A stretch of 64,000 nucleotides of DNA, taken from the NCBI RefSeq assembly GCF_001748385.1, contig NZ_BCLI01000001.1, positions 124,001-188,000 on the forward strand, written 5' to 3'. Numbering within the stretch: position 1 is the first letter of the stretch; every line of letters begins with the position of its first letter. The stretch comes from Vulcanisaeta thermophila (GTDB lineage: Archaea > Thermoproteota > Thermoprotei > Thermoproteales > Thermocladiaceae). The position numbers and the translations under genes were made by a program. Below the pieces are notes generated by a model. It was not told the origin of the DNA. It saw nothing but the letters and a program-made list of their open reading frames with translations, and did no database searches. Positions 644-60,933 of the stretch are shown one piece after another.

Positions 644-1561
644 ATGAAGGTTTTGATTGTTGGCGTTGGTAGGATGGGGCAAAACCACATAAAAACCCTC
701 CTGGAACTGAAGAGGGAGAACCTGGTATCAGCAATTTACGCGCATGATGTGGACCCCGCGAAGCTTGAGCAGGCAAGGAGAATGGGCGTTGACGCGGTCT
801 TCCCAAGGCTTATTGACGCAATAAACCAAAGACCTGATCTGGGGATTGTGGCGGTCCCCACACAGTATCATTATAGGGTCTCCCTGGAATTAATAAAGTA
901 CATGGACCTACTCATTGAGAAGCCCATAACGGACAACCTAAATGATGCACTATCACTTTATAACGAGGCCAGGAGGCAGGGTAGGGTGGTGATGGTGGGG
1001 CATGTGGAGAGGTTCAACCCCACGTATGTTTCATTATCCAGTGAGTTGAGGGGTAAGGACGCCATATACCTGGAAACCATAAGGATTGGGAAACCCGCAG
1101 GTGACCTGGCGAGTTACGGCAATGTGTTGGTGGACTTGGCGATACATGACGTGGACCTGGCCCTGGACATAGTGAAGCCCGACGTGGTGAGCATAGACCA
1201 CGCGCGGCTACTTAATCAACCAGTAACAACGGCCCTCTCAATAATGAGCTTCGACGACGTGCCGGTTGTGGATTATGTATCGTGGGATTACGACAATAGG
1301 GTTAGGACACTCAAGGTGGTAACCACCAGGGACTACTACGAGGCGGACCTACTCAATAATTACATGGTGCATGGTGAGTCCAGGAGTAAGGTTCAGGGAA
1401 TGGAGCCCCTAAAGCGTGAGTTGCTGCATGCCATAAAGGTGGTAAAGGGCATTGAAAAACCCATCGTGGGTATTGAGGAGGGCATAAGGGCGCTGGCAGT
1501 CATTGATGGCATAATGAGGGGTGTGAGGAAAATAGAACTGAATGCACTATTTGGGCTATGA
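644..1561 (+). CDS. Gfo/Idh/MocA family NAD(P)-dependent oxidoreductase
   Basis: 305 residues. The N-terminal Rossmann fold shows GVGRMG at residues 7-12, and the family's EKP motif is at about 92-94 (LLIEKPITDN). The C-terminal half holds HVERFNPTY and DLAIHDVDLALD, typical of the alpha/beta dimerisation and substrate domain. Members oxidise or reduce sugars, inositols and related polyols with NAD(P). The substrate cannot be read from sequence. It could equally be a UDP-sugar 3-oxidase-type member. Its stop overlaps the convergent gene at 1556-1960 by six bases. Confidence 0.88.
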   Translation: MKVLIVGVGRMGQNHIKTLLELKRENLVSAIYAHDVDPAKLEQARRMGVDAVFPRLIDAINQRPDLGIVAVPTQYHYRVSLELIKYMDLLIEKPITDNLNDALSLYNEARRQGRVVMVGHVERFNPTYVSLSSELRGKDAIYLETIRIGKPAGDLASYGNVLVDLAIHDVDLALDIVKPDVVSIDHARLLNQPVTTALSIMSFDDVPVVDYVSWDYDNRVRTLKVVTTRDYYEADLLNNYMVHGESRSKVQGMEPLKRELLHAIKVVKGIEKPIVGIEEGIRALAVIDGIMRGVRKIELNALFGL

Positions 1562-57372: not shown

Positions 57373-57460
57373 TTAATATAAATTATACTTAACGCACGAA
57401 CCAACACCACTAGGCGGGCCTAGTAAAGGATTTTTAGACATCCCAGTCCAGGTCAGTGCA

Positions 57461-57529
57461 ATGGGTACTGAGTGGAACGAGGTCTGGAAAATATCCCTCT
57501 CAGCATTCTTCGCTGGTTTGGGCTACTAA
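57461..57529 (+). pseudogene. 5' stub of an MFS transporter gene (broken)
   Basis: ATG at 57461, 26-27 bases after box TTTTTAGA (about 57431-57438), encodes 22 residues (MGTEWNEVWKISLSAFFAGLGY) then TAA. This looks like the N-terminal and first membrane helix of a major facilitator protein (pattern ISLSAFFAxLGYQ). The rest is absent; a matching C-terminal part on the same strand starts near 59020. The piece between is occupied by an opposite-strand ORF, so the gene was interrupted or replaced. Confidence 0.5.
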
Positions 57530-57542
57530 GGATGGCGAGTTG

Positions 57543-57554
57543 CCCCACGTGGGG
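57543..57554. repeat. Perfect 12-base palindrome CCCCACGTGGGG
   Basis: CCCCACGTGGGG lies between the MFS stub stop and the stop of the minus-strand LAGLIDADG-like gene (57556). It could be a hairpin terminator or a recombination-end sequence; no copy exists at the other end of the inserted block. Confidence 0.4.
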
Positions 57555-57555
57555 T

Positions 57556-58767
57556 TTATGGGCCTGGGTTGCTTAGCAGGTGTAAAGCCATCTCAAGGTA
57601 TTGATTGTCTTTTGTTTTTCGCCACTTAAGTAGCAATCCATATAACTGTTTAATTGTCACGTAGTCACCTGGCCTTTTCTCCTTCAGCTTTGTTATACCC
57701 CTTACTATCTTCTTTAGATTTATCTTGTCACCCTTGTCCTCTGCCTCGCCCAACAATAGCAATACAAATGCCTTCGCAGTCTTACTATGAAACGGAAGTA
57801 CCCTGAACATCACTGGCCACGCCAATCTAACAAACTTCAAAACATCTTTTCTGCCAAGCCAGACGTGATAATAAACATTTCCATGAACATATACTCCGGA
57901 TGTTTCTGCAGTAAATCCGTAACTCCTCAGTATCTCAGCAATTTGCTCCATGCATCGCCCATCCTTACCTACAATCTGTATCGCTGGACGTAGTTCTGCA
58001 TTGCGGATCCTTGTTACTGCAATTGTCCCATCAGCAAACAACACCCCTATTATTTCATGGATATCCCCTGGGCATTCTTTAACAAATGCTGAGGCACCAT
58101 CAAGCAATGCTACTCTGGGGTTCTTGTGGACATTAAATGACGGCCGGATTGACAAGAACGGCCTCATTAGGCTGGGCTTCTTAAGTTCAGGGTCAGAAAT
58201 CACCAAACTAGTTATTGCCATTGCCTTAGTTTTAATTATACTTGTTAATATTGAACCATCCCCATAAATATAGCCTTTTATCACCCTCTTAAACTGTTCA
58301 TTCACTAATTCCCACGGTAATCTCTTGTACTTTGACATCTTTATCATGCTCAAAGCCTCCACCACGTCAAGGCTTGCCATAAAGGTTTCATTATTGAGGA
58401 TTAATTCATCCAGCAACTTCATCATCACATTCACAACGTTAATTATGAAACTCGCTATCTCCATGCCATACACTGTAATACGTCTCATCGTATAGTCTTC
58501 GGAATATTTAATTTGCATTTCATCGAGTAGTGACTTGGCGTGATCAACATCGTAGAAATGAATCCTTTTTCTTATTCCGTCACTATATGTCCACCTTGTT
58601 TTAACAAGCAGTTCGTGAATTTTCCAAAACTCCTCAAGCGCTTCGGTTGGGGCTCGGCGGGCTGGGTTTCTTTCTGTGTTGTTGGTGTTTTGGTGTTGAG
58701 TATCATGTCCTGTGCCCCTTCTCTCTTCCTGATTGGTCATGGCCTCGCTTTCTGAGCCCAGGCACAC
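57556..58767 (-). CDS. LAGLIDADG-like protein, free-standing homing-endonuclease candidate
   Basis: 403 residues. IIGVLFADGTI (about 239-249) fits the LAGLIDADG consensus, followed by a strand-helix run ending VYYHVWLGRKDVLKFVRLAWPVM, as in homing endonucleases. A weaker second copy, IKGYIYGDGSI (about 163-173), lies 75 residues earlier. The N-terminal 160 residues are helical and charged and not recognised. It is on the strand opposite the broken MFS gene that it lies in, and it is not inside an intron. The first ATG is 58767; ATG at 58740 is also possible. Base composition looks more AT-rich than neighbours. Confidence 0.55.
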   Translation of the reverse strand: MCLGSESEAMTNQEERRGTGHDTQHQNTNNTERNPARRAPTEALEEFWKIHELLVKTRWTYSDGIRKRIHFYDVDHAKSLLDEMQIKYSEDYTMRRITVYGMEIASFIINVVNVMMKLLDELILNNETFMASLDVVEALSMIKMSKYKRLPWELVNEQFKRVIKGYIYGDGSILTSIIKTKAMAITSLVISDPELKKPSLMRPFLSIRPSFNVHKNPRVALLDGASAFVKECPGDIHEIIGVLFADGTIAVTRIRNAELRPAIQIVGKDGRCMEQIAEILRSYGFTAETSGVYVHGNVYYHVWLGRKDVLKFVRLAWPVMFRVLPFHSKTAKAFVLLLLGEAEDKGDKINLKKIVRGITKLKEKRPGDYVTIKQLYGLLLKWRKTKDNQYLEMALHLLSNPGP

Positions 58768-58926
58768 ATTACACAGAAGCAGGTAGGTTTAAGAGGCACT
58801 CACCATCAAGCCCCCAGCCAGCCCGGCAAGTCCCCCGCAAACGTCCCCAGCAACCCTGACACTCCTACACCCCACACAAACCACCACCTTACCAGGGAGT
58901 TGCATTAAAAGGCCCACTCCACATCA

Positions 58927-59409
58927 ATGCAGAACGAAGACTCACGAAAAACCGAGAACACCATCCCACCAAGAAAACCACAAAAAGACCACCCCACATT
59001 GAGAAACAGAAAGAAGAACCTAATCGGAATCGGCTACCTATTCGGAAAACTAAGGCTAAGCGAGTACAGGGGGTTGGCCTTCCTGGGCTACCTAATGGGC
59101 TCAGTGGCATCCCTGGGCATGTACCCAATGGCATTCCTACTGGGTGTTGCTGTGGCGGGTACCGAGGTCTTCGAACCCACGATAGTCTCTAAGCTCGTGC
59201 CCAAGAAGTCCCTGGGCTCGGGCATGGGCATGCTAACCCTGGGCAGGAGTATCGGCTTACTCCTTGGGAATTCAGTAATGGGGCTATTATACCAAATACA
59301 CTACACATACTCATACTACTTCGCATCAGCAACATCCCTCGCAGCTTTCATAATAATCATACTAATACAAAGACCTATGAGAATGAGCAAATCAAGGGCT
59401 CATCCATGA
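58927..59409 (+). pseudogene. C-terminal remnant of an MFS transporter
   Basis: An open frame of 160 residues. From about residue 33 it is the end of an MFS protein: GYLFGKLRLSEYRGLAFLGYLMG, GMYPMAFLLGVAVAGTEVFEPTIVSKLVPKKSLGSG and GRSIGLLLGNSVMGLLYQ with a last helix FIIIILI. The first 30 residues (MQNEDSRKTENTIPPRKPQK) are unlike MFS sequence and look newly created. A box GCATTAAAAG near 58906 might still drive it. With the 5' stub at 57461 it represents the two ends of one gene missing about 250 internal residues. Confidence 0.6.
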
Positions 59410-59668
59410 TGATCAACTCATTCTAAATAAAACCATAAACCACGTGGTACTCATGAACCGAGATTCCTAAACCCAGTAAGTCTCGATCTCAGTAATGGAA
59501 CCTAAGTTGAGAATAGTACAGTGAGACCCTGAGTATAAGATTGATTATTTAATAAACAGCACAGTGAGCATAGTCAACTCACCCAAGAATCTAACGAACC
59601 TACGGCTAAATAATACCTAATTATTTTAAGCATAAAATATTAAAAATACGTATTAGGACGGTTTAATA
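59410..59668. other. AT-rich non-coding stretch, no gene seen
   Basis: About 260 bases between the MFS remnant and the MscS gene. I see no open frame longer than 30 codons, no C/D boxes and no tRNA-like fold. The last 50 bases contain candidate box A elements (ATTAAAAATAC near 59640) for the MscS gene. Confidence 0.5.
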
Positions 59669-60301
59669 ATGTCGTCCAGTGGTGGAGGAACTGAAAATAT
59701 CGCCAGAAATATATCTACTAGCCTAGCGTGGTTAATAGTATGGATTGCAGTGTATATGATAGTTGCGGCCATTGTAAACAGTGTACTACCCCAAGTCCTA
59801 AGCCCTATATTTAACTACAGGGAATTAGTTCTTAAACCATATGGCGTCTACATAAACATCGTGCTAGCATTAATTTTTGGTTATATGATTGTCAAGAGTT
59901 TTGCCAACTTCATGTACTGGTCCATGAGGGTTAGATATCCCCACCAGACCGCCGCGGCCATTAGGAGTATCGTAACTATACTAGGGATTGGTGCATTACT
60001 GGCCTCAATAGCTGGAGGAGTTGCAGGGGGTGCAGCTGGGGTAGCCTTAGGTGGCTTCCTGGCACTCGTAATTGGTTTCGCCTCCCAGCAAGTCTTGGGT
60101 CAGGCCGTTGCCGGGATGTTCATATTATTAACAAGACCATTTAAGATAGGTGACTACGTGAATATCGTAGGCGAACAAGGCACTGTAGAGGATATAACAG
60201 CGCTCTTCACCTACGTTAGGAAAGACGACAACACCCTAGTCCTAATACCAAGTGCCTCAATAATAGGTAATAAGATATATCATCTTAAAAAGGCTCAATA
60301 A
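59669..60301 (+). CDS. Short mechanosensitive channel (MscS family)
   Basis: 210 residues. Three membrane segments (about 16-38, 62-82, 96-150), the pore helix rich in Gly/Ala (GIGALLASIAGGVAGGAAGVALGGFLALVIGFASQQVLGQAVAGM) and the MscS beta domain (RPFKIGDYVNIVGEQGTVEDITALFTYVRKDDNTLVLIPSASIIG) are clear. It ends about 15 residues after the beta domain, so the C-terminal alpha/beta vestibule of E. coli MscS is absent. The channel releases solutes on osmotic downshift. Confidence 0.88.
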   Translation: MSSSGGGTENIARNISTSLAWLIVWIAVYMIVAAIVNSVLPQVLSPIFNYRELVLKPYGVYINIVLALIFGYMIVKSFANFMYWSMRVRYPHQTAAAIRSIVTILGIGALLASIAGGVAGGAAGVALGGFLALVIGFASQQVLGQAVAGMFILLTRPFKIGDYVNIVGEQGTVEDITALFTYVRKDDNTLVLIPSASIIGNKIYHLKKAQ

Positions 60302-60844: not shown

Positions 60845-60933
60845 TGGTGCCGGGGCCGGGATTTGAACCCGGGCCCCCTTGCGGGGACGGACTTAGCAGG
60901 CCCGCGCCTTGGACCTGGCTCGGCCACCCCGGC
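60845..60933 (-). tRNA. tRNA-Ser (anticodon GCT)
   Basis: A class II cloverleaf on the minus strand: acceptor GCCGGGG/CCCCGGC, D arm GCC...GGC, anticodon stem CGGGC/GTCCG around CTGCTAA (anticodon GCT, reading AGC/AGT), long variable arm CCCC-GCAA-GGGG, T arm CCGGG-TTCAAAT-CCCGG, and encoded CCA. The discriminator is A73, whereas G is usual for archaeal tRNA-Ser. No intron. Confidence 0.95.

Follow-up and report, generated by a model that had tools for sequence, protein, structure and literature searches.

The window considered here is the whole stretch of 64,000 nucleotides that was analysed (G000:C1:124001-188000), and it belongs to the assembly of a heat-loving archaeon, 2.02 Mb in ten contigs. 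The genomes compared with it include relatives of the same genus (G001-G011, genus g1) and G012, a member of another genus of the same family that is available as one contig of 2,077,567 bp. Within the window, two ends of a gene of the major facilitator family (MFS) lie on the forward strand and enclose an open reading frame (ORF) of 403 amino acids on the reverse strand, together with short segments that recur elsewhere in the same genome. The features are listed in window coordinates.

57458..57526, forward strand: 5' part of the MFS gene, corresponding to codons 1-24 in G012, 87% nucleotide identity to L038:6409-6477
57521..57526, forward strand: GGCTAC, the last MFS codons before the insert; the hexamer occurs again at 59032-59037 on the other side
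57527..57542, no strand assigned: 16 bp between the MFS head and the right end; a search for their origin found no match
57543..57570, reverse strand: predicted right end of TnpB-type elements, AACCCAGGCCCATAAACCCCACGTGGGG, 28 bp, palindromic
57556..58767, reverse strand: 403-aa ORF with a TnpB-like N-terminal leader and a LAGLIDADG-like body; probable start ATG at 58740
57820..58053, reverse strand: second LAGLIDADG-like domain (IIGVLFADGTI...), residues 239-316, matched by Pfam and by the order-specific profile
58201..58335, reverse strand: first LAGLIDADG-like motif region, FKRVIKGYIYGDGSI, within residues 145-189 (IKGYIYGDGSI), matched by PHROG 4645
58393..58650, reverse strand: N-terminal domain, residues 40-125, with a 40% identical relative in G012
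58648..58740, reverse strand: N-terminal leader MTNQEERRGTG...NTERNPARRAP, homologous to the leaders of TnpB genes
58768..58804, reverse strand: promoter and left junction segment, TGAGTGCCTCTTAAACC..., the same before the TnpB gene on contig C5
58805..59019, reverse strand: start of a truncated ribbon-helix-helix (RHH, CopG/VapB-like) gene with its upstream region, common to C5, C3, C9, C4 and G012 L039
59030..59409, forward strand: 3' end of the MFS gene, codons ~257-395 of the G012 gene, with 11 codons missing at ~59117

A DNA search of the relatives recovered an intact MFS gene in G012 (L038:6406-7593, 395 aa), and both forward-strand segments align with it, the 5' end as listed above and window positions 59030-59480 with the end and some 3' flank of the gene at 80% nucleotide identity with a 33-nt gap. 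The original prediction that these are two ends of one MFS gene is thus borne out, as is its reading of the event as an insertion combined with a deletion: codons 25-256 of the G012 gene are absent, and the gap between the ends holds about 1.5 kb. The loss had been put at about 250 codons; it is real, and its size is about 232 codons, with a further 11 lost at ~59117 that are kept in five of five MFS orthologues. Likewise, the last third of the gene had been placed at 58927-59409. The ORF called there does match Pfam MFS_1 (E=6e-10), but its first ~30 codons are derived from the insert and the MFS sequence begins only at ~59030. An MFS promoter had also been claimed; similarity to G012 starts 3 bp before the ATG, and conservation does not support that part. 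Full-length or almost full-length orthologues are present in G011, G018, G021 and G044. The rest of the window does not contain the missing middle, and a DNA-level search of the genome gave no second MFS copy. Judged by its sequence, the MFS gene of the window is a pseudogene. The GGCTAC hexamer at the two junctions codes for Gly-Tyr in each copy, corresponding to residues 23-24 and 257-258 of the G012 protein, and the pair may have arisen by target duplication, through microhomology or by chance.

The left flank of the locus (rpsK, an enolase-like gene, deoC, a small ribosomal-type ORF and an ACT gene) is largely syntenic within the genus, and in the same-genus relatives it is not followed by the MFS gene or by the right flank. 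The MFS segment is therefore itself variable, and no clean empty site was found among the genomes of the genus that were compared, nor target-site evidence for a precise insertion. On the right, a gene for an MscS-type channel (59669-60301) shares 88% DNA identity with G012, where it has another location (L042), and the MFS ends are likewise about 87-88% identical to G012 (59030-59480 at 80% with gaps included). This suggests gene exchange with a G012-like lineage. In both genomes a tRNA-Ser gene lies near the MFS gene, at 60845-60933 in the window (GCT anticodon) and at L038 7935-8024 in G012 (CGA).

The reverse-strand ORF had been described as a LAGLIDADG-like gene, and the ORF is real. The ORF is open across 394-403 codons and both of its GDG/ADG motifs are retained. 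The match to Pfam LAGLIDADG_3 is below the cut-off (E=0.042); however, the ORF scores 25.9 bits with a profile made from LAGLIDADG_3 proteins of its order, where the highest of 200 shuffles reached 5.5, and an endonuclease family, PHROG 4645, recognises residues 145-189 (E=4.6e-5). On these profile scores, which are weak, the protein is probably a LAGLIDADG protein. A single-sequence AlphaFold2 model gives an alpha-beta-beta-alpha-beta-beta-alpha order at residues 40-125, a hint only at its low confidence (pLDDT 39). The sole clear relative of this N-terminal domain is encoded in G012 (L039:4229-4573), directly 3' of an RHH gene; searches of 61, 81 and 398 genomes returned G012 only, apart from a marginal match in G010 (E=0.004, 40 residues). 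No full-length relative of the ORF body is present among 398 genomes of the phylum, and no homologue of the 403-aa protein was recovered from wider genome contigs, viral contigs, phages or plasmids, nor any solved structure resembling it. The same genus has a family of LAGLIDADG-like proteins of about 505-595 aa that Pfam scarcely covers (L098:1018-2532, L101:622-2145, L105:637-1944 and L100:289-2073). By eye, members of 505-519 aa had looked like possible relatives of the ORF, which a comparison of profiles did not bear out.

The right end of the insert, AACCCAGGCCCATAAACCCCACGTGGGG, overlaps the 3' end of the 403-aa ORF and provides its final residues and stop codon. It occurs at 10 sites in the genome at up to three mismatches, with a reversed control pattern giving none, and its 20-bp core occurs at 13 sites at up to one mismatch (12 besides the window) and at none in 40 relatives. 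Most of the other sites mark the ends of TnpB genes. At five of the 10, the same strand carries a PF07282 TnpB domain some 320-500 bp further upstream (C5:69870, C1:314664, C7:79444, C1:645052 and C6:95351), and C-terminal remnants of TnpB are present at C1:592398, C7:301 and C4:634420. Because three sites have no TnpB gene just upstream (C5:19106, C4:282424 and C5:224498), the sequence might instead be a target or a repeat of another kind. In one unit of contig C4 (L149), TnpB stands behind an intact RHH gene and CCCCACGTGGGG is found at both ends with the adjoining sequence inverted, the left palindrome lying at position 1253 of that locus. We accordingly take AACCCAGGCCCATAAACCCCACGTGGGG, from these copies, to be the right end that the TnpB elements of this genome share. 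Only its final 28 bp are kept in the window, the longer 3' region of the other copies being gone, and the palindrome occurs there once only, at the right end. Since the left palindrome is missing, the window copy is probably immobile now.

The opposing view of these repeats would be that the ends of the insert are host sequences, namely terminator or small-RNA sequences and RHH promoters, that by chance surround both TnpB genes and the ORF. The sites that lack TnpB, and the position of several sites near tRNA genes, would agree with it, but at least five of the 10 sites mark the end of a TnpB gene, at comparable distances, while others end TnpB remnants, the C4 unit has palindromes at both ends, and the homology runs on into a coding leader. 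We regard such a coincidence as very improbable.

Several further regularities of these repeats were seen. At L045, L046, L047 and L050, only some 15-25 bp separate the CCCCACGTGGGG right end from the 3' terminus of a tRNA gene on the opposite strand, as if the TnpB elements favoured sites beside tRNA 3' ends. At four sites (L048, L051, L052 and L164) the right end is followed by a second repeat, which reads atCCATGGTTCACAGG... or much the same. TnpB units also have a conserved and probably structured block, AATGAG-CCCCGAG...CTCGGGG-TTGATTAA, that separates their promoter from the left palindrome; it is found in L149 (~1180-1260, reverse strand), L152 and L153.

The left part of the insert resembles TnpB units as well. 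The TGAGTGCCTCTTAAACC segment aligns with the promoter of the TnpB gene on C5 (L010:2415-3818) with a score of 24, where 500 shuffles reached at most 13. A TTTAAG-type promoter at ~58790 would, by archaeal promoter spacing, place the transcription start about 25 nt before the ATG at 58740. The leader that begins at this ATG has its counterpart in the C5 TnpB, MAKQTKNEGTPG...NNAGRNPARQA, and in the TnpB proteins of C1 and C4 (...NGGNPARRAP); the local alignment with the start of the C5 gene scores 23 against at most 17 in 500 shuffles. A DNA alignment of the leader with the C4 TnpB gene does not rise above shuffles, though the NPARRAP motif is shared. The same leader starts a different TnpB body on C1 (L144), and the TnpB genes of L144, L149 and L150 likewise join one N-terminal leader (KNEGTPG...NPARRA/NPARQA) to differing bodies. 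The leader thus looks like a module of the element and not of one protein. Just past it, 127 bp of the ORF body give no alignment with the C5 TnpB gene, and the GC content is 0.55 in the leader against 0.41 in the body, from which the coding region of the ORF is shown to be a chimaera with its joint near 58640. Further left, the RHH block is common by alignment to six loci in two genera, and none of 500 shuffles reached its score against C5 or against G012. The window and C5 have the truncated RHH start joined to the promoter in the same way, so this joint probably predates the insertion into the MFS gene.

Homing endonucleases are selfish DNA-cutting enzymes, and an insertion by homing is precise and costs the target gene none of its sequence. 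The original prediction had considered homing or end-joining repair; in a homing account, a free-standing LAGLIDADG gene homed into the MFS gene, which then decayed. The prediction had rightly observed that the antisense gene lies outside any intron or intein: 232 codons are missing and a stop directly follows the MFS head. A LAGLIDADG-like ORF within a protein gene, with neither intron nor intein, agrees with such homing, and a free-standing homing endonuclease is known from cyanophages, at least as the work of Zeng et al. (2009) is cited in PMC4227781. The loss of 232 MFS codons, however, is at odds with a precise insertion; the full ORF is present in no other genome searched; and sequence derived from a transposon bounds the ORF, with a TnpB-type right end, promoter and first codons and the RHH start on its flanks. 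Stand-alone homing is therefore not upheld, and we give it little credence. Because the right end, promoter and first codons are of TnpB type and the RHH start is shared, the ORF most probably came in as a derivative of such an element or as part of one.

The reading that we favour, and hold to be reasonably probable, is that the MFS pseudogene was broken by a derivative of the TnpB-type transposons that this genome itself carries, a derivative whose TnpB body and 3' guide-RNA region were swapped for the gene of a LAGLIDADG-like predicted endonuclease. In this scheme one or more units of RHH gene and nuclease would have entered the MFS gene, and its middle would have been lost by the insertion or by later recombination between element ends. 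Recombination of an RHH-TnpB unit like that on C5 with an RHH-LAGLIDADG unit like that in G012 would have placed the LAGLIDADG body behind the TnpB leader, and the left block common to both units offers an obvious route for it; the product would have kept the left block, promoter, leader and right end and carried the LAGLIDADG body. The protein, if active, would cut the uninterrupted site and in this way preserve or spread the element, the role that TnpB plays with an RNA guide. The order of events, the mobility and the nuclease activity in this scheme are what we infer.

A more accidental history would have two elements inserted near codons 24 and 257 which recombined or were end-joined, so that the MFS middle was deleted and a chance hybrid left the LAGLIDADG ORF stranded without a role. 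It would account for the deletion and the mosaic ends together, and the GGCTAC at both junctions and the many element copies in the genome fit it. Against this, the ORF is still open over 394-403 codons with both GDG/ADG motifs intact, and the RHH-promoter joint, being the same on C5, is older than the insertion. We think this history unlikely, if less so than stand-alone homing.

Compared with it, the derivative of a TnpB-type transposon remains our preferred account, and a wider interpretation may be built on it. A LAGLIDADG homing-type endonuclease may have replaced the RNA-guided TnpB inside a TnpB-type element and taken over its retention and spread, while promoter, leader and right end were kept, which would imply a family of mobile RHH-plus-nuclease units with exchangeable nuclease bodies. 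We offer this tentatively, as possible and less than probable. The full chimaera is known from a single example, and with no full-length relative of its body in 398 genomes the replacement of TnpB is read from a single locus. What is new is the combination of the right end and leader of a TnpB element with a LAGLIDADG-like ORF. In the part of the literature covered we found no published combination of TnpB/IS605 with LAGLIDADG, which is weak evidence, and in similarly partial coverage nothing on LAGLIDADG with ribbon-helix-helix genes in archaeal mobile elements. If true, a LAGLIDADG-like nuclease between the ends of a TnpB element would show directly that these two kinds of selfish nuclease can stand in for one another, and it would become testable whether such elements need a retention function rather than RNA guidance.

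TnpB is an ancestor of CRISPR nucleases. By analogy with homing, a LAGLIDADG nuclease in its position could retain the element without a guide RNA. The TnpB nuclease is described as keeping its transposon in the genome in a manner akin to homing endonucleases (PMC11870625); published TnpB elements have palindromic left and right ends and may hold a lone tnpB, and in the case studied the guide RNA derives from the right end of the element (PMC8612924). With the TnpB insertion sequences, whether of IS200/IS605 or IS607 type or with TnpB only, the insert shares through the units of its own genome the right-end palindrome, the promoter, the leader codons and the RHH-start block. It differs from them in having no TnpB body, no long 3' guide-RNA region and no left palindrome, with the LAGLIDADG-like ORF instead; PF07282 has no match in the insert, where the TnpB gene is reduced to its N-terminal leader, and no tnpA was seen inside it. 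The free-standing LAGLIDADG homing endonucleases (PF14528-like) share with the ORF two LAGLIDADG-like motifs whose terminal acid is kept (YGDG, FADG), whereas the ORF has in addition an N-terminal domain, a leader derived from TnpB and transposon ends on its flanks. IStrons, which consist of a group I intron and an IS605-type element (PMC4227781), are a precedent for the chimaera of such an element with another mobile element, there a self-splicing intron; but in IStrons a ribozyme is joined to the element, while in the insert it is the nuclease that has been exchanged, and there is no sign of an intron. Finally, the RHH-LAGLIDADG unit of G012 (L039:4229-4941) has the same RHH upstream block, with the 40% identical N-terminal domain directly downstream; unlike the window, it has an intact RHH gene and no TnpB leader, and its nuclease gene ends after the first domain (114 aa).
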